Positions 2,852-19,731 of a stretch of 22,343 bases of DNA are shown in pieces. The translations under genes and the position numbers were made by a program. A model generated the notes under the pieces. The model saw only the letters and a list, made by a program, of their open reading frames with translations, had not been told where the DNA came from and did no database searches. The stretch comes from a virus. Location of the stretch: positions 1 through 22,343 of IMG/VR virus record IMGVR_UViG_3300027784_000057; one strand, given 5' to 3'. Within the stretch, counting starts at the first letter, position 1, and each line of letters opens with the position of its first letter.

Positions 2852-3802
2852 ATGGCAACTATCGGCATCATTGGCTCGGGGGAGACGACCCCCGAGAACG
2901 CCACCGAACTGCTCGATATGATGATCGACCAGACGGGTGGTGACACCGAAGCAGCCTTCGTGTTCGGGGTCTCGCATGAGTGGACCCCGGTCTTGCAGGA
3001 GGCCGCTGACTACTTCGAGGACTTCCCCTCCGAGGTGGTGTGGTCGCAGCGCGCGAGGAAGGATCTCGATGCCTTCCCCGATGATCTACTCGACGCGGCC
3101 ACCGCTGTCCACAAGGCCGAACGGGTCGGGATCAAGGTCGCTGACGTGCTCGCCAAGCGGCGGGACGAGGGCAACGAGGTCTATCTGGCCGTGGCCTGGG
3201 ACCACAACCTCGCAGAAGACGAGGAGGACGAGGGCTATCGCGCGGCAGAGGCTGCCCACGACCTCGGCATCGAGGTCCGAGACCTCACGAGTGGTCTAGA
3301 GATCATCAACTTCCTCGACGAAGAGGACGAGGAGGAAGAGCCCGAGGAGGCTGAGGAGAAGGACGAGGCTCCTGAGACCGATGGCTACACCCGGGAGTAC
3401 CTCGAAGGCCTGGACCGCGCAGATCTGAAGAAGGTCGGCATCGACCTCGGACTCATTGAGGAGAGCCAGCGCCCTCGTACGCCGACCCTGGTCGAGATGA
3501 TCCTGAAGCACCAGGCGGCGGGGGAGGAGGGGGAGGAGCAGGAAGAGACTCCCGAGGAACCTGCTGAGAAGCCTGCTGAGGAAGAGCCTAAGGAAGAGCC
3601 TGAGGCTCAGGATGCCCCGGAAGGTTCCGAGACCACGAGCACTCCTTTCGATGACCTCAACGAGGGCATCATCCACTACAGGCTGGATCGTCTCGGTGAG
3701 CAGTTCGAGGCCATCCACGCTGAGTTGGCGCAGATGGAGGCTCGACTTACCGCCGCCATCGAGGCGAATAGCAAGCCCAAGCGGCAGCGTCACACGGACT
3801 AA
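2852..3802 (+). CDS. Rossmann-like protein with acidic linkers and a SAP/HeH-like motif
   Basis: A 316-residue protein of unknown function with a clear modular layout. Residues 1-155 look like an alpha/beta Rossmann or SLOG-type nucleotide-binding fold: ATIGIIGSGETTPEN (strand, glycine turn), then AAFVFGV, then VYLAVAW, ending EVRDLTSGLEIINF. Residues 156-175 are an almost pure Glu/Asp linker. Residues 179-221 (YLEGLDRADLKKVGIDLGL to LVEMILKHQ) resemble the HeH/SAP/Rho-N helix-extension-helix fold, often nucleic-acid binding. A second Glu/Pro linker (224-260) leads to a coiled coil at 268-305 and a basic end. The ATG at 2852 has GGAGGA five bases upstream. It lies just upstream of the replication initiator. 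Domain assignments are by pattern only; no specific biochemical role can be claimed. Confidence 0.75.
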   Translation: MATIGIIGSGETTPENATELLDMMIDQTGGDTEAAFVFGVSHEWTPVLQEAADYFEDFPSEVVWSQRARKDLDAFPDDLLDAATAVHKAERVGIKVADVLAKRRDEGNEVYLAVAWDHNLAEDEEDEGYRAAEAAHDLGIEVRDLTSGLEIINFLDEEDEEEEPEEAEEKDEAPETDGYTREYLEGLDRADLKKVGIDLGLIEESQRPRTPTLVEMILKHQAAGEEGEEQEETPEEPAEKPAEEEPKEEPEAQDAPEGSETTSTPFDDLNEGIIHYRLDRLGEQFEAIHAELAQMEARLTAAIEANSKPKRQRHTD

Positions 3803-3813
3803 GCGAGGGACAG

Positions 3814-5313
3814 ATGAGCAAGAACCACACTTTCGTACCTCAACGTGAGGTACTTATGAACGATGAGTTGTCCACTATGGGCAAGTTCGTGCTCATCGAG
3901 ATTCTGAGCAAGCCCGATCACTGGCAGTGCTGGGCCTCCGATCTCGCCCGCCGTGCCCAGGTCTCCCAGCCCACGTTGGCCCGCATCAAGGATGATCTCA
4001 TCCAGGCGGGCTACGTTCGCTGGAACAGTGGGGCGTCCCAGGGCAAGAGCCGGTGGTGGGTGCGCGAGAGCAAGCGTGTGGACTTCCCTTCGGGGCACAC
4101 CCGCATTGCTCGCCTCCGCACCCCCTCCGGGAGGATCGCCTACCGCAGCCACGGGGACTGGGGCCACAAGATCGATCACGGGGTCTGGAAGGATCCTAAT
4201 CTCACGCCCGGCGAGAAGGTCGTGCTCCAGATCCTCCTCTCCATGCACCCCAACCAGCGCAAGCGGGTGACGATCTCTACCCTCACCCGATACATCAAGG
4301 AAGGACGTTCCTTCGCCCAGAAGACTCTCGCGTCGCTAGAGGCGAAGGGCTATGTCGTCCGGGCCTCCGTACCCGGTACACGGGGAAGACTGACCTGGAG
4401 GACCGAGGTCAAGACCCACCCCCGAGTCCGTTCAGAGGGGGCCGAGGAGATCCAGCGGAGAGCCATCCCCCGACCCGTCTTCGCCAGCCACGTCAGCCAC
4501 GAGGTCCGGGAAATGGCTCTACAGAGCCAGAATCCGGCACCCAAAGAATTCTGCATGCGGTCATCTTTGGCCTTAGTAGGGAGTGACCATGCAACACAGA
4601 CGTATAGTGCGGATTCTCTCCGTACTCACTACGTGAGTACTTCGAGAATGGCTGCGCCTCTAGCGACAGTACAGTCTGACTTGTTTGATCCTGAAGAGAA
4701 GCGTCGTCAGGTCTTGGACAAGAAGCGTTCACGGGTTAACGAAGAAGCAAGTAGCGATACCACCTGGTCCCGTACGGTGGCCGGTGTTGATGTTGAATCT
4801 CCTGGTCGCACGCCCCGCCGTGGGCGGAAACGACGTGAGGATCTTGATCCTGCTGACTGGGACGCGGCTCTCCTCGCGGAGGAACTACGCGAGAGAAGCC
4901 GTTCTCTTGGGTTCGCTTCCCGTGGGTTCGACGTGAGTCGGGCGCGCGGTCGCATGAAGCACTTCCTCGGGACACATGAGCCGGATCGGCTCTATCAGGC
5001 GATGGTCTCTTGGTCTGAAGACTGGTCAGGGCACTACAACGAGATCAAGGATCCGATCAACCACTTCTTCTTCATGGCCGAGAACTACTACCTCACAGGC
5101 TGTTACTCCATTCGGGCGGATCGCCCTGAGGGTCTTGAGCACTCCACGACCCATTCGGTCTACGTAGAGCCCGTGAGCGGGCCTCGCGGCCCCGCCGCGT
5201 CTGCCGCCACCGAAGACGAGGACTCCGGGCCTGAGGAGGGCTCAGGTGAACTCTGGGGGGATCTGAAGCACCGCTACCAGCATGTCCCCCGTTACCTCCG
5301 CGGTGTCCGTTAG
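3814..5313 (+). CDS. Replication initiator-like protein with two winged helices
   Basis: A 499-residue protein that probably recognises the phage origin and recruits the helicase loader. Residues 6-86 form one winged-helix domain (VPQREVLMNDELSTMGKFVL, then a recognition region SQPTLARIKDDLIQAGYV and a wing). Residues 122-197 form a second (NLTPGEKVVLQILL, SFAQKTLASLEAKGYVVR). Residues 200-335 are a polar linker. Residues 335-460 (ADWDAALLAEELRERSRSLG to DPINHFFFMAENYY) look like a compact helical domain such as those of DnaD or lambda O-type proteins. ATG 3814 is chosen because the conserved winged-helix start lies before the next in-frame ATG (3856). DNA encoding the start and the linker contains perfect dyads, consistent with operator or origin sites within the gene. 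The replication role is inferred from folds and neighbours. Confidence 0.72.
   Translation: MSKNHTFVPQREVLMNDELSTMGKFVLIEILSKPDHWQCWASDLARRAQVSQPTLARIKDDLIQAGYVRWNSGASQGKSRWWVRESKRVDFPSGHTRIARLRTPSGRIAYRSHGDWGHKIDHGVWKDPNLTPGEKVVLQILLSMHPNQRKRVTISTLTRYIKEGRSFAQKTLASLEAKGYVVRASVPGTRGRLTWRTEVKTHPRVRSEGAEEIQRRAIPRPVFASHVSHEVREMALQSQNPAPKEFCMRSSLALVGSDHATQTYSADSLRTHYVSTSRMAAPLATVQSDLFDPEEKRRQVLDKKRSRVNEEASSDTTWSRTVAGVDVESPGRTPRRGRKRREDLDPADWDAALLAEELRERSRSLGFASRGFDVSRARGRMKHFLGTHEPDRLYQAMVSWSEDWSGHYNEIKDPINHFFFMAENYYLTGCYSIRADRPEGLEHSTTHSVYVEPVSGPRGPAASAATEDEDSGPEEGSGELWGDLKHRYQHVPRYLRGVR
3835..3853. repeat. Perfect 8-3-8 inverted repeat at start of initiator gene
   Basis: Arms GTACCTCA (3835-3842) and TGAGGTAC (3846-3853) flank ACG. 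It lies 21 bp inside the initiator gene. It could be an operator for self-regulation or an initiator-binding site, or a hairpin in the mRNA near the start codon. It has the same size as, and shares GTAC ends and CTCA with, the dyad at 4622-4640. Confidence 0.5.
4514..4529. repeat. 7-2-7 inverted repeat in initiator linker
   Basis: TGGCTCT (4514-4520) and AGAGCCA (4523-4529) are exact complements around AC. A repeat of this length is expected about once by chance in a window this size, so it matters only because it lies near the larger dyad at 4613-4649. Confidence 0.3.
4613..4649. repeat. 37-bp extended dyad, candidate origin or operator
   Basis: Outer arms ATTCTC (4613-4618) and GAGAAT (4644-4649) and inner arms GTACTCAC (4622-4629) and GTGAGTAC (4633-4640) share one centre at 4631, giving 14 complementary pairs with symmetrical 3-bp interruptions. 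The dyad lies in DNA for the non-conserved linker (about residues 267-279) of the initiator protein, between its DNA-binding and C-terminal domains. That is the position of the replication origin within gene O of lambda. A weaker CCAAAG/CTTTGG pair lies just upstream (about 4543-4572). Confidence 0.5.
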
Positions 5314-15717: not shown

Positions 15718-16125
15718 ATGAGTTGGTGGCAGCAGAAACTCACGGGTGAGCCGAGCCCCCTGCGGGCTCCGGTGCAGAGTCAGCAGTCCTCTCCTCCTGC
15801 CCACGAGCCCTCTCCCCACGTTACCGAGGACGGGAAGATCGCGGTCTCTGACGCGACTGAGGTTTGGGGCGGTACTGAGGAGCAGCGGAATCGTTCTGGT
15901 CGCTGCGACGTGTGTGGGAGCACGAACTACTGGGAGATCCCCCAGCGTGGTACTTACGTACCGAAGTGCTTTGACTGTGGGCGCATCGTACAGTTCGGAT
16001 CCGACACGGGGACCGGCGGTTCGCAGCAGAAGGTAAACAAGAGCAATGAGGTTGCTGGCGCTGCCCGGCAGCCTAAGAGTTTCTATACCGGTGCCCACAC
16101 CAGTACTATCGTCGGACGTGTCTAA
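15718..16125 (+). CDS. Zinc-ribbon protein
   Basis: A 135-residue protein whose middle forms a zinc ribbon: C63, C66 (CDVCGSTNYW) and C84, C87 (PKCFDCGRIVQFG). N-terminal 50 residues are Pro/Ser/Gln-rich and probably disordered; the last 14 residues (FYTGAHTSTIVGRV) look like a short conserved tail. Such proteins lie next to polymerase and RecA in many actinophages with no proven function; DNA or protein binding is likely. It begins two bases after the polymerase stop. Confidence 0.7.
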   Translation: MSWWQQKLTGEPSPLRAPVQSQQSSPPAHEPSPHVTEDGKIAVSDATEVWGGTEEQRNRSGRCDVCGSTNYWEIPQRGTYVPKCFDCGRIVQFGSDTGTGGSQQKVNKSNEVAGAARQPKSFYTGAHTSTIVGRV

Positions 16126-16138
16126 GGGGGTGAGCCCC

Positions 16139-16183
16139 GTGGCGTGTAAGAAGAAGTCCAAGAAGAAGCCGAAGAAGAAGTAG
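16139..16183 (+). CDS. 14-residue Lys-rich peptide ORF
   Basis: GTG 16139 encodes MACKKKSKKKPKKK, nine of fourteen residues lysine. AAGGGGG (16124-16130) is about eight bases upstream, a good ribosome site, and a second site (GGAGAG, 16183-16188) follows for the RecA gene. It fills the only gap between zinc ribbon and recA. A basic peptide of this kind could bind nucleic acid, or the translation of it may help position ribosomes for recA. Real expression is not shown. Confidence 0.35.
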   Translation: MACKKKSKKKPKKK

Positions 16184-16190
16184 GAGAGCC

Positions 16191-17288
16191 GTGGCTACGA
16201 AGACGAGGGACAAGAAGGCGACGCTTGCGGCCATTGCCGCCGAACTTAATAAGACACATGGGGTCGGCACGGTGGTGCTGGGCTCCGAGATTAGTAATTA
16301 CGTCCTGCCGAGAATCACGACAGGTTCTCTAGCCCTTGACGTTGCGTTGGGCGGTGGCTGGCCCGCGAATCAATGGAATGAGGTTCTAGGGTGGGAGAGC
16401 ACGGGCAAGACGACTATTGTCCTCAAAAGCATTGCAGCGAACCAGGCCTCGGATCCCGATTGGGTTTGTGTGTGGGTTGCTGCCGAGCATTTTAACAGTG
16501 AGTGGGCTCGCGCCCTTGGGGTGGATCTCGATAGGGTCATCCTCGTAGAGGACAATCTGATGGAGGTTGGCTACGAGGCCGCGATTCGTTATGCGGAGAC
16601 CCGAGAGGTTGACTGTATCGTCATCGATTCCCTTCCTGCCATGGTGCCTGGGGACGAGGCCGAGAAGGGTATCGAGGAGATGACGGTGAGCGCGGCTGCT
16701 CGTCTCACCAACAGGTTCTTCCGCAAGGTCTCGAAGGCCATGCGGCGCTCGATGGTGGAAGAGGATCGTCCCATCACTGGCATCATCATCAATCAGTGGC
16801 GTGACCAGATCGGTGCGTTCTCCCCCAACCCTAATGTGACTCCTAAGACCTCTCCGGGCGGTAAGGGGAAGAATTTCTCCTATTACACCCGTATCGAGAT
16901 TCTTCGTGGCGATTGGCTGCGGTACAAGGGCACGCGGGTTGGTCAGGAGATCAAGTTCCGGGTTGTCAAGAACAAGTCAGCCGCGCCGATGAGGGAAGCC
17001 TTCGTCGATTTCTACTTCGAGCCCGTCGAGGGGTTCTCCGTAGGGGACTTCGACACGGTGAAGGAGGTTGCCTCTTGCGCTCTGTCTCTCGGTGTGCTAG
17101 AGCAGCCCCCTGGTACCCAGTCTGGTACCTACGTCTTCGAGGAGCGAGGGTACAAGCAGCGGGGCAAGGAGAACGTCTCTAAGGACCTCTCAGAGGACCC
17201 CGCCCTCCGTACGGCCCTGGAGTACGCCGTGAGGAAGAGACTGGCGCAGAAGGACGCTCCTGTCCTCTCACCGGAGGACGAGGAGTGA
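16191..17288 (+). CDS. recA: RecA-like recombinase
   Basis: A 365-residue strand-exchange protein. Walker A is GWESTGKTT (67-75, E. coli GPESSGKTT); the catalytic glutamate region reads VAAEHFNSEWARALGVD (E99); Walker B is VDCIVIDSLPAMVPGDEAE; the L2 loop and strand read NQWRDQIGAFSPN, TPKTSPGGKG, then YYTRIEI, matching RecA NQxRxKIG...GGxALKFYxSxR. It probably supports recombination-dependent replication together with the nucleases downstream. GTG 16191 follows GGAGAG. The stop overlaps the next GTG (GTGA). A phage RecA rather than UvsX is indicated by the closer match to bacterial RecA. Confidence 0.93.
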   Translation: MATKTRDKKATLAAIAAELNKTHGVGTVVLGSEISNYVLPRITTGSLALDVALGGGWPANQWNEVLGWESTGKTTIVLKSIAANQASDPDWVCVWVAAEHFNSEWARALGVDLDRVILVEDNLMEVGYEAAIRYAETREVDCIVIDSLPAMVPGDEAEKGIEEMTVSAAARLTNRFFRKVSKAMRRSMVEEDRPITGIIINQWRDQIGAFSPNPNVTPKTSPGGKGKNFSYYTRIEILRGDWLRYKGTRVGQEIKFRVVKNKSAAPMREAFVDFYFEPVEGFSVGDFDTVKEVASCALSLGVLEQPPGTQSGTYVFEERGYKQRGKENVSKDLSEDPALRTALEYAVRKRLAQKDAPVLSPEDEE

Positions 17289-17548
17289 GCGGGTACGAGG
17301 TCACTGGAGGGTGGGGATTGAGCACGTACAGGGTCAGGTCCCAGGACCCTCCTACCCACAACGACTCCCAGGACATCCAGTCGCTCGTCATGGAGGACAT
17401 CGCTGCCCGTAGGCGGGAGGGGATCCGAAAGTACGGCACTCCTCTCCAGGCTTGGAACGATAGGGATGCCATAGTAGACGCCTACGAAGAGGCTCTGGAC
17501 CTCGTCTGCTATTTACGACAATTGATCGAGGAGCGAGATGGCGACTAA
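17285..17548 (+). CDS. MazG-like nucleotide pyrophosphohydrolase
   Basis: An 87-residue protein starting at GTG 17285 (4-bp overlap with recA, ribosome site GGAGGACGAGGA). Residues 35-85 read VMEDIAARRREGIRKYGTPL, then RDAIVDAYEEALDLVCYLRQ, the pattern of the small phage MazG-like proteins, with acidic residues E68/E69 and D72 for metal binding. Such enzymes hydrolyse dNTPs or (p)ppGpp-like nucleotides; in phages they are thought to alter the host nucleotide pool. Only one half of the full MazG-type acidic motif is seen, so activity is inferred. Confidence 0.65.
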   Translation: MSGYEVTGGWGLSTYRVRSQDPPTHNDSQDIQSLVMEDIAARRREGIRKYGTPLQAWNDRDAIVDAYEEALDLVCYLRQLIEERDGD

Positions 17549-17870
17549 CGCAGAGAAGCGTAAGAGGCGGCGCTCGAAGATGCAGGAACTCGCTACTGCC
17601 GAGGCTTTCGAGGGCCGTACTACGCCTGCTTCTGGTGCCCTGTGGGGCTCGAAGGGTGACGTGGTTACCGACGCGGAGATGGTAGAGAATAAACGCACGG
17701 ATAAGAATCAGATCATCCTGAAGAAGTCAGATCTCAGGAAACTGTGGTCTGAGGCAACGGCGTCAGGCAAGGTTCCCTATATGGCAATCGAGATCGACGG
17801 AGACCGCTACGTGCTGCACGCAGAGGGAGACTTTCTGGAGTGGAGATATCGGAAGATGACAAGCGGCTAG
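17538..17870 (+). CDS. PD-(D/E)XK nuclease, probable Holliday-junction resolvase
   Basis: A 110-residue protein with the nuclease signature GALWGSKGDVVTDAEMVENK: D41, E50 and K52 form the D...ExK triad, followed by a DLRKLWSEATASGKVPYMAI helix-strand pair and DGDRYVLHAEGDF. The N-terminus is basic (EKRKRRRSKMQE). Size and order match the small resolvases of phage recombination modules; it would cut branched DNA after RecA action. ATG 17538 follows GAGGAGCGAG and overlaps the previous gene by 11 bp. A restriction-like nuclease of other specificity cannot be excluded. Confidence 0.7.
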   Translation: MATNAEKRKRRRSKMQELATAEAFEGRTTPASGALWGSKGDVVTDAEMVENKRTDKNQIILKKSDLRKLWSEATASGKVPYMAIEIDGDRYVLHAEGDFLEWRYRKMTSG

Positions 17871-18466
17871 ACCTAGAGGACATCTGGCCGGACTGGATGA
17901 GGCAGGGTAGGTGCTGGGGCACGGCTCCAGTCCCTACCCCTCTTCGGGTCGTGGCGCTGGTCGAGAACGGGAAGGAGATCCTGACCTGTGGTCATCAGGT
18001 GGACCCTATCTTTCCTCTAACCGAAGCGCCTGCTAGGTCGTACCACCGCCTGTGCGAGGAGTGTGGGGCCGATCCTGAGACCATCGATCTCTTCATGCCA
18101 CGGAAGGGGCCGGATTCGTACGAACAAACGAAGGCGGCGAAGAGTGTTTGTGACGGGTTCCGAGGCAAGGACGACCCCTGCCCGGTGCGTGAGGAGTGCC
18201 GTGAGTTCGCTATCACGACCGGCCAGAATCAAGGGGTGTGGGGTGGAACGAGCCCAGAGGACAGAGCAAGGATACGCAGGGAACGAGCGGGCAAGCCGCC
18301 AGTGAGGAGAGACCGTGGCCGCGAAGAAGTCGGATCTGTGGGGGCTCGTGAAGAGCCGGAAATCTTCAACGCAACTGCTCGGCCAGGTCGAGCAACACCT
18401 ATCGCTCCTCCGGGAAAGCGACAGGGATCAGACAGTACTACACCCCTCGGAGATGGCGAAGAGTGA
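17840..18466 (+). CDS. WhiB-like iron-sulphur protein with a zinc-ribbon-like insertion
   Basis: A 208-residue WhiB-family protein, likely a sigma-A-associated Fe-S regulator of host or phage transcription. Conserved elements: WPDWMRQGRC (first Cys, C25), LFMPRKG (85-90), AKSVC (C104), CPVREECREFA (C114, C120) and GVWGG with SPEDRARIRRERAGK. Two things are odd. About 56 residues between C25 and LFMPRKG contain an extra Cys/His set (TCGH at 49-52, LCEECG at 71-76) like a zinc ribbon. And C104 to C114 are ten residues apart instead of the usual C-x2-C, owing to an insert (DGFRGKDDP). GTG 17840 is used; ATG 17897 is a possible shorter start. The last 50 residues overlap the next gene out of frame. 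Confidence 0.75.
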   Translation: MEISEDDKRLDLEDIWPDWMRQGRCWGTAPVPTPLRVVALVENGKEILTCGHQVDPIFPLTEAPARSYHRLCEECGADPETIDLFMPRKGPDSYEQTKAAKSVCDGFRGKDDPCPVREECREFAITTGQNQGVWGGTSPEDRARIRRERAGKPPVRRDRGREEVGSVGAREEPEIFNATARPGRATPIAPPGKRQGSDSTTPLGDGEE

Positions 18467-19412
18467 TTGGTGCGCTCGACGTGCCTACTACCGAGTCACT
18501 GGCACGCCCGAGGAAGAGCGGAAGATCCACTACCGTCTGCGCTCGGTGTTTGACTATGGTGACGAACTCCATGAGAGGTGGCAGGGTCGTCTCTGGGACA
18601 TGGGGATCCTGTCAGGTACTTTCGAGTGCGTTGTCTGTTCCCGTCGGTGGGAGGACCAGAGCCCGGAGCAGTGTCCCTACTGTGAGACACCTCGTGGCGG
18701 TCTCGTCTATCGAGAGGTGCCGCTGCGGTCGGAAGAACTGAATATCTCTGGGCACGCCGATGGCGCGGTAGGTGACGCCCTCCTTGAGATCAAGACCATT
18801 GGCGTAGGCACGGTGCGGTGGGAAGCGCCTCATCTCCTGAAGAAGCACACGCACGAGACCGTCGAAGGTAAGAAGGTCATTGATGCCGAGGGCCTGTGGA
18901 AGTCGATCAACACGCCCTTCCCTTCCCACGTCCGACAGGGATTGATCTACCTTTTCCTCTCGGGCCTTAGCAAGATGATCTTCATCTACGACTCGAAACT
19001 CGATCAGAGTGCGAAGGAGTTCATCGTCCACCGAGACGATGAGCGAATCGCGCACCTTCTCGAAGACGCGGCGGCGATAGCAGCAGCGGTAGAAGCGGGT
19101 CTTCCTGTTGAGCACCCCGAGTGGGCGCACAAAGATCATGCGACATGCAAGGCCTGTCCGTTCTATAATCTGTGTTGGAACATTGAGACGGAGGGCAGTG
19201 ACGATGGCGAAGCCGACGTGGACGAAGAATCCGAAGGTAGAGAGAGCGCGGCAGGAGGCGAGGGAGCGCGACGAACTCGCTCGACGGGATCTCGAACTCG
19301 CCCCGAGGCCGAACGACGAGGGGATGGGGCCTCCGGGACTCCCGGAAGACGTATCCGCTTTGAGCGACGACGCCCTCGTCAGGATGATGACCGTCCTGAG
19401 CGGCTGGGCTGA
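18315..19412 (+). CDS. Cas4-like PD-(D/E)XK exonuclease with Fe-S cysteines
   Basis: A 365-residue RecB/Cas4-type exonuclease that would resect DNA ends for RecA. Motifs: VLHPSEMAKSDWCARRAYYR (C53, first Fe-S ligand), H86 region YGDELHERWQ, core ISGHADGAVGDALLEIKT (D149, E158, K160), QGLIYLFLSG and C-terminal CKACPFYNLC (C278, C281, C287), a four-cysteine Fe-S set. An extra zinc finger (C105, C108, C120, C123; FECVVCSRRW and QCPYCE) is inserted between H86 and the catalytic core. GTG 18315 follows GAGGAGAG. Residues beyond about 295 form a low-complexity Arg/Gly/Glu tail that overlaps the next gene by 209 bp in another frame. Conserved nuclease motifs lie entirely before that overlap. Confidence 0.82.
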   Translation: MAAKKSDLWGLVKSRKSSTQLLGQVEQHLSLLRESDRDQTVLHPSEMAKSDWCARRAYYRVTGTPEEERKIHYRLRSVFDYGDELHERWQGRLWDMGILSGTFECVVCSRRWEDQSPEQCPYCETPRGGLVYREVPLRSEELNISGHADGAVGDALLEIKTIGVGTVRWEAPHLLKKHTHETVEGKKVIDAEGLWKSINTPFPSHVRQGLIYLFLSGLSKMIFIYDSKLDQSAKEFIVHRDDERIAHLLEDAAAIAAAVEAGLPVEHPEWAHKDHATCKACPFYNLCWNIETEGSDDGEADVDEESEGRESAAGGEGARRTRSTGSRTRPEAERRGDGASGTPGRRIRFERRRPRQDDDRPERLG

Positions 19413-19731
19413 TTACCTCGAAGCCGAACTTGCTGCTGCCGAGGTCCATGAGCGTGGGTGCAATGACATCCTGGAGGTCATTGAGGCCGAGGGTCTGATT
19501 CGTAACTGGGGGGAGTCGGGCTCGGTCAATGTCGCCAAGGCGCGGGCCAAGGTCTCATCCTCCGAGGTCGTGGAGGCTCGGGACCAGGCGCAGGTTGCCT
19601 ACGCGCGCCGGAAGTACCTGACCACGATTTTCAACCGCGCTGAGAGGGGGGCCGCTCTTTTGAGCCGGGAGTTGACTCGACGCCTGGGCAGGGAACAAGT
19701 CACCCGTCGAGCCGACCGGTACTCGACATGA
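19204..19731 (+). CDS. Coiled-coil protein of unknown function
   Basis: A 175-residue mostly helical protein. The start ATG 19204 is chosen because GGAGGG (19190-19195) is correctly spaced; the longer frame (from 19108) would only cover nuclease coding sequence. N-terminal basic/acidic helix (RARQEARERDELARRDLELA), LSDDALVRMMTVLSGWADYL at 53-72, then two long helices and the ending RAERGAALLSRELTRR, which recurs in actinophage proteins of this size. No enzymatic motifs seen. It overlaps the nuclease by 209 bp and the next small ORF by 4 bp (ATGA). Function unknown. Confidence 0.65.
   Translation: MAKPTWTKNPKVERARQEARERDELARRDLELAPRPNDEGMGPPGLPEDVSALSDDALVRMMTVLSGWADYLEAELAAAEVHERGCNDILEVIEAEGLIRNWGESGSVNVAKARAKVSSSEVVEARDQAQVAYARRKYLTTIFNRAERGAALLSRELTRRLGREQVTRRADRYST

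Follow-up and report, generated by a model that had tools for sequence, protein, structure and literature searches.

Wbl proteins have been described as small and compact, with four cysteines that keep the fold together and a GVWGG β-turn as an invariant motif (PMC6282962). In Mycobacterium tuberculosis WhiB1, a class I Wbl protein (structures 5oay, 6ono and 6onu), residues W3, F17, F18 and W60, like their counterparts in WhiB3, have roles in cluster stability and σA binding. The tryptophan at position −6 relative to the first cysteine (W3) stabilizes the cluster and aids σA binding in WhiB1, while WhiB3 carries W17 at −6 and a second, redundant tryptophan close by (PMC10245118). According to a 2021 survey of actinobacteriophage WhiB proteins, only the WhiB of phage TM4 had been studied for its role in infection; it represses host whiB2 and has been linked to superinfection exclusion (PMC8612146).

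Among phages, the BRock-type proteins (BRock gp68, GiJojo gp149, LuckySocke gp158, the pSt2308 protein and IMG/VR loci L012–L051) share with the protein analyzed here the position between an Hjc-like resolvase and an exonuclease, the C-x8/9-C-x5-C spacing and GVWGG. They carry no insert, and 23–34 residues separate their first and second cysteines, compared with 79 in the present protein. Among the viral WhiBs of L012–L136, a large class has C-x8-C or C-x9-C instead of C-x2-C.

A WhiB domain and cysteine-rich knuckles also occur on one polypeptide in Piper2020 gp60, VRedHorse gp57 and locus L114. In these proteins, however, the cysteine-rich parts lie at the C- or N-terminus, whereas here they lie within the Fe-S ligand set. 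In L114 (approximately 3800–4264), a zinc-finger-like CADCG...CHGC extension precedes an ordinary WhiB domain.

The WhiB gene and its layout

The window (the whole stretch of DNA analyzed, 22,343 bases) is an IMG/VR virus fragment whose genes include a family A DNA polymerase, a RecA/UvsX-like recombinase, an Hjc-like resolvase, WhiB, a Cas4-like exonuclease and a RuvC-like resolvase. By exonuclease and recombinase protein, the nearest named phages were Streptomyces phages BRock, GiJojo, LuckySocke, Alone3 and pSt2308 (39–44% identity), which makes an actinobacterial host probable. No phage record matched the window DNA at 16000–19500, and a DNA polymerase scan found no nearer phages.

The WhiB open reading frame (17840–18466, forward strand, GTG start) encodes 208 amino acids. 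It scored 47.9 bits against PF02467 (E = 2e-12; curated cut-off 23.6 bits) and matched PHROG 472 with E = 1.4e-15, in agreement with the earlier note, which had placed a WhiB protein with an insertion at this locus. Its closest solved relatives were WhiB1, WhiB, WhiB3 and WhiB7, and its fold matched the WhiB1 and WhiB3 structures.

The gene overlaps the upstream Hjc-like Holliday junction resolvase gene (17538–17870, forward; PHROG 2002, 3.7e-17) by 31 nt and the downstream Cas4-like exonuclease gene (18315–19412, forward; PHROG 2506, 1.7e-32) by 152 nt. The synteny set comprised 44 loci, of which 40 were IMG/VR loci reached via the neighboring exonuclease and four were Streptomyces phages. 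The order Hjc–WhiB–Cas4-like exonuclease was kept in all 44 as well as in the window, and the protein is, judged from sequence and gene order, the syntenic ortholog of WhiB in BRock-type Streptomyces phages.

Cysteines were found at positions 25, 50, 72, 75, 104, 114 and 120, and histidines at 52 and 69. The element W16..W19-x5-C25 (17885–17914, forward), with a putative first cluster cysteine and a tryptophan at −6, is followed by DLFMPRKG (18086–18109, forward), an FFPE-like element in which F85 aligns with WhiB1 F17 and M86 with F18, the two residues whose role was described for WhiB1 (PMC10245118). The other three candidate cluster cysteines form C104-x9-C114-x5-C120 (18149–18199, forward); the spacings x8/x9 and x5 also occur in the syntenic orthologs. 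After the last cysteine, the aligned GVWGG β-turn motif (residues 132–136; 18233–18247, forward) matches the Wbl pattern G[VI]WGG, and an Arg-rich C-terminal helix, SPEDRARIRRERAGKPP (18254–18304, forward), aligns with that of WhiB1 and is predicted as helix at residues 139–149. C25, C104, C114 and C120 were invariant among the 50 WhiBs of alignment A4, which bears out the proposal that four candidate Fe-S cysteines remain.

WhiB1 was the best match in both sequence and fold; it shares with the window protein the tryptophan at −6 of the first cysteine, TGQ followed by GVWGG, and a basic C-terminal helix. It differs in its C-x2-C spacing, in having no insert and in being small and compact.

A C-x2-C pair widened to ten residues had been counted among the unusual features of the protein. 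The pair is indeed widened, but to nine residues (C104–C114), and this is not peculiar to the protein: 41 of 105 distinct viral WhiBs had C-x8-C or C-x9-C, among them all syntenic orthologs that were scored, compared with none of the 83 cellular WhiB frames scored. The wide spacing is a phage-lineage trait, separate from the insert. It was rejected as a novelty, since x8/x9 is standard across the phage lineage.

The C-terminal tail (residues 156–208) shares its DNA with the exonuclease gene, which is read in a different frame there (18315–18466, approximately 50 codons), and has an atypical GC3 of 0.42; it was therefore probably shaped by the other frame.

Position of the first cluster cysteine

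The alignment methods did not agree on the first cluster ligand. In MAFFT alignment A1 with ordinary phage WhiBs, C72 stood in the first-cysteine column, and hmmalign likewise favored the C72–C75 region. Both alignments lacked close orthologs, and both prefer C72/C75 because a gap of approximately 50 residues costs more than a shifted match.

These results are consistent with a WhiB domain starting at C72 or C75, so that residues 1–71 would be an N-terminal extension, C25, C50 and H52 would make up at best a degenerate site, and apart from its long N-terminus the protein would be a WhiB of the ordinary kind. The Pfam alignment begins at residue 77, the distance from C75 to F85 is near normal (10 compared with 9), and N-terminal extensions occur in many phage WhiBs, for example Spooky gp66. 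However, there is no tryptophan at −6 of either cysteine, the CxxC pair and CGH would each be one partner short, and W19 and RCWG would be left unexplained.

The scores also set the two regions apart. When the sequence context of the first cysteine was scored position by position, C25 yielded p values of about 0 to 0.0025, while both C72 and C75 were indistinguishable from random. In the profile-segment score, residues 8–32 reached +6.1 bits against all WhiBs and +2.7 bits against the wide-spacing set, compared with −0.6 bits, a value below zero, for residues 55–82. Lengthening the core profile segment from residue 77 back to 60 gained just 0.3–0.9 bits.

In the alignment with a set of syntenic orthologs, C25 did not vary and W19 hardly did; alignment A4, with 50 sequences, likewise had an invariant C25, and W19 was conserved there in at least 90%. 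The syntenic orthologs read W-x5-RC[KR]G at this point. Loci such as L041 continue as W-x5-RCKG-VADTDIFYPP, and the window counterpart is W-x5-RCWG, the insert, and then ADPETIDLFMP. W19 lies at −6 of C25, like W3 of WhiB1, with a second tryptophan (W16) nearby.

Considering the syntenic alignment, the context score, the profile segments and the −6 tryptophan together, C25 is likely the first WhiB cluster cysteine, as the earlier note had assumed, with MAFFT A1 and hmmalign disagreeing; a domain start at C72 or C75 is considered unlikely.

An AlphaFold2 model was obtained from the 50-sequence alignment. As this alignment had C25 pre-placed as the first cysteine, the model does not test this assignment independently. 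The pLDDT was mostly above 80 for residues 80–150 and about 71 for residues 11–20, while most of the insert (27–42 and 45–62) stayed below 50. The best Foldseek matches were WhiB1, WhiB3 and WhiB in complexes that contain sigma region 4 or RNA polymerase, with WhiB1:σA region 4 complexes at the top, and phage WhiBs including that of BRock were also matched; together with the confident core at 80–150, this corresponds to a WhiB fold. Single-sequence folding (pLDDT 37) was uninformative.

The inserted segment

With C25 as the first cysteine, the inserted segment comprises residues 29–76 (17924–18067, forward), for which a β-hairpin (37–42/45–50) and a helix (65–75) were predicted at low confidence. 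Read in translation, it holds C50-G-H52 (17987–17995, forward) and C72-E-E-C75 followed by G (18053–18064, forward), the two halves of a zinc-ribbon-like motif. An insertion of about 56 residues with TCGH and LCEECG had been proposed between the first cysteine and FMPRKG. The distance found between C25 and F85 of FMPRKG is 59 residues, including TCGH and RLCEECG, and the net insertion relative to the syntenic orthologs is approximately 44–51 residues.

From the first to the second cysteine, 79 residues were counted in the window, compared with 23–34 in the syntenic orthologs and 20–36 in the 105 distinct viral WhiBs, none of which has the insert. It was also absent from the 43 syntenic loci that passed the cysteine pattern and have the usual four cluster cysteines, and from the 44th, L035, with the same cysteines and GTWGG. 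An uninterrupted first-to-second cysteine segment of 23–34 residues is a trait seen in BRock-type orthologs, with no published definition; at 79 residues, the window protein is therefore a variant of the BRock-type WhiB rather than a plain member.

The protein had been said to differ from typical phage and cellular WhiBs. This holds for the insert, found in none of the 105 viral WhiBs or 80 bacterial genome loci; it does not hold for the wide C-x-C spacing, which is ordinary in the phage lineage.

The GC3 of the insert (0.67) is close to that of the core (0.68) and falls within the range of the neighboring genes (0.66–0.72), so that the insert reads as genuine coding sequence. The seven cysteines and H52 are each used once in a 4+4 partition, with an Fe-S set (25/104/114/120) and a zinc-ribbon-like set (50/52/72/75). 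Compared with a zinc ribbon, in which CxH and CxxC knuckles lie between β strands, the motif is present, the hairpin was predicted at pLDDT below 50, and no profile was matched. Since no homolog of the insert was recognizable by profile, tblastn or genome and module scans, it is the motif spacing that points to a zinc ribbon. The insert had no significant similarity to the extensions of Piper2020 gp60, VRedHorse gp57 and L114 (E = 4 to Piper2020 gp60).

The search for homologs with the same insertion yielded no second carrier in phage records, plasmids, IMG/VR scans, GTDB or about 400 actinobacterial genomes. Tblastn with the whole protein, and with the insert by itself, found none in 50,697 phage records; a tblastn search of plasmids with the whole protein found none either, and the five matches inspected there were ordinary WhiBs. 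In IMG/VR, no carrier was obtained by the peptide search, by the alignment search (80 of 335 loci kept) or by three DNA-pattern scans, for the first of which this applies to the matches listed; the other two covered sequences whose F-x-P and AKx[VI]CxG codons matched exactly. GTDB genomes searched by peptide and alignment yielded none, as did 395 genomes of one actinobacterial class, where 19 weak matches resembled noise. A scan for the module only (CGH..RxC..CG) returned eight stretches, one of them in frame, in a 55-aa frame within a 371 kb contig. Alignment A2 was dropped as a query for the collection scan because it was too diverse.

On the sequence evidence, the insert-bearing WhiB is a singleton so far and a real variant of a common phage protein, seen on a single metagenomic contig. 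An assembly artifact is not favored as its source, because frame and codon usage are kept.

The singleton status, the lack of homologs found and the low AlphaFold confidence would also be consistent with a chance in-frame segment that binds no metal and forms a disordered loop, the phage gene being in decay or evolving fast. Against this, the frame is held over approximately 48 codons with the codon usage of the gene, the core WhiB residues are intact, and CGH/CEECG is a typical zinc-knuckle pair in zinc ribbons. A chance segment is accordingly regarded as improbable.

Alternatively, the extra thiols could serve as a redox switch, through a disulfide or cluster relay, instead of a structural zinc site; Wbl cluster loss and disulfides have been tied to altered DNA binding, as for WhiB4 (PMC6282962). 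The histidine in CxH and the CxxCG knuckle, however, point to zinc, and such a switch appears highly improbable. We know of no homologous redox switch.

Proposed function and genomic context

With C25 placed first, an Fe-S cluster with a separate, putative zinc-ribbon-like site stands as the most parsimonious reading. The Fe-S fold would be built from two separated pieces, C25 with W19 and then C104/C114/C120 with GVWGG, and a [4Fe-4S] cluster would be held by these four cysteines. The module of approximately 48 residues would sit in the helix 1–helix 2 loop, where it would most likely hold one structural zinc ion; C50, H52, C72 and C75 are reasonably likely to be its ligands.

W19, F85 and W134 keep three of the four WhiB1 residues W3, F17, F18 and W60, with M86 in place of the second phenylalanine. 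Most likely, region 4 of the host principal sigma factor would be bound via the cluster face (W19, F85, W134), in the manner of WhiB1 and WhiB3, and this binding would redirect host RNA polymerase. The inserted ribbon may add a contact to DNA or RNA polymerase.

As a whole, a phage Wbl regulator with a split Fe-S fold, a zinc-binding insert and sigma region 4 binding is somewhat favored. More tentative, and on the doubtful side, is a protein with two metal centers in which the [4Fe-4S] ligand set is split by a zinc ribbon that newly contacts RNA polymerase or promoter DNA beside the σA region 4 interface. Since the TM4 WhiB, the sole actinobacteriophage WhiB studied in infection by the time of the 2021 survey, acts on host whiB2, a host-directed role would be equally open.

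The window WhiB is a genuine variant of a phage regulator that is already known, and a modestly surprising one. If a natural insertion separates the first cluster ligand from the second, the helix 1–helix 2 loop tolerates a whole module, and this loop would mark a site where Wbl proteins can acquire new contacts. The insertion also offers a test of what the loop faces in the sigma-bound complex.

RecA usually lies ahead of the Hjc–WhiB–exonuclease cluster, and so does the polymerase in contigs long enough to include it. The constant order in 44 of 44 loci, often with overlaps, suggests a joint operon for the three genes, and the place of WhiB among replication and recombination genes suggests that the regulator is made together with that module. 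The WhiB class in these phages may be tied to recombination and replication genes, and its conserved association with a Holliday resolvase and a Cas4-like nuclease gives a lead on the role of such phage WhiBs.

Overlaps among the resolvase, WhiB and exonuclease genes were frequent (window 17538–19412; loci L012–L055). The Cas4-like exonuclease (18315–19412) carries a rubredoxin-like CxxC...CxxC knuckle at residues 104–123 approximately, a pattern present in 41 of 44 orthologs, and beside it Cas4-like cysteines in C-x2-C-x5-C spacing, present in 26 of 44. Between the polymerase and the recombinase, a 135-aa open reading frame (15718–16125) contains a CxxC...CxxC ribbon (RCDVCG...KCFDCG), with weak relatives at the equivalent place in L044, L045 and L049.
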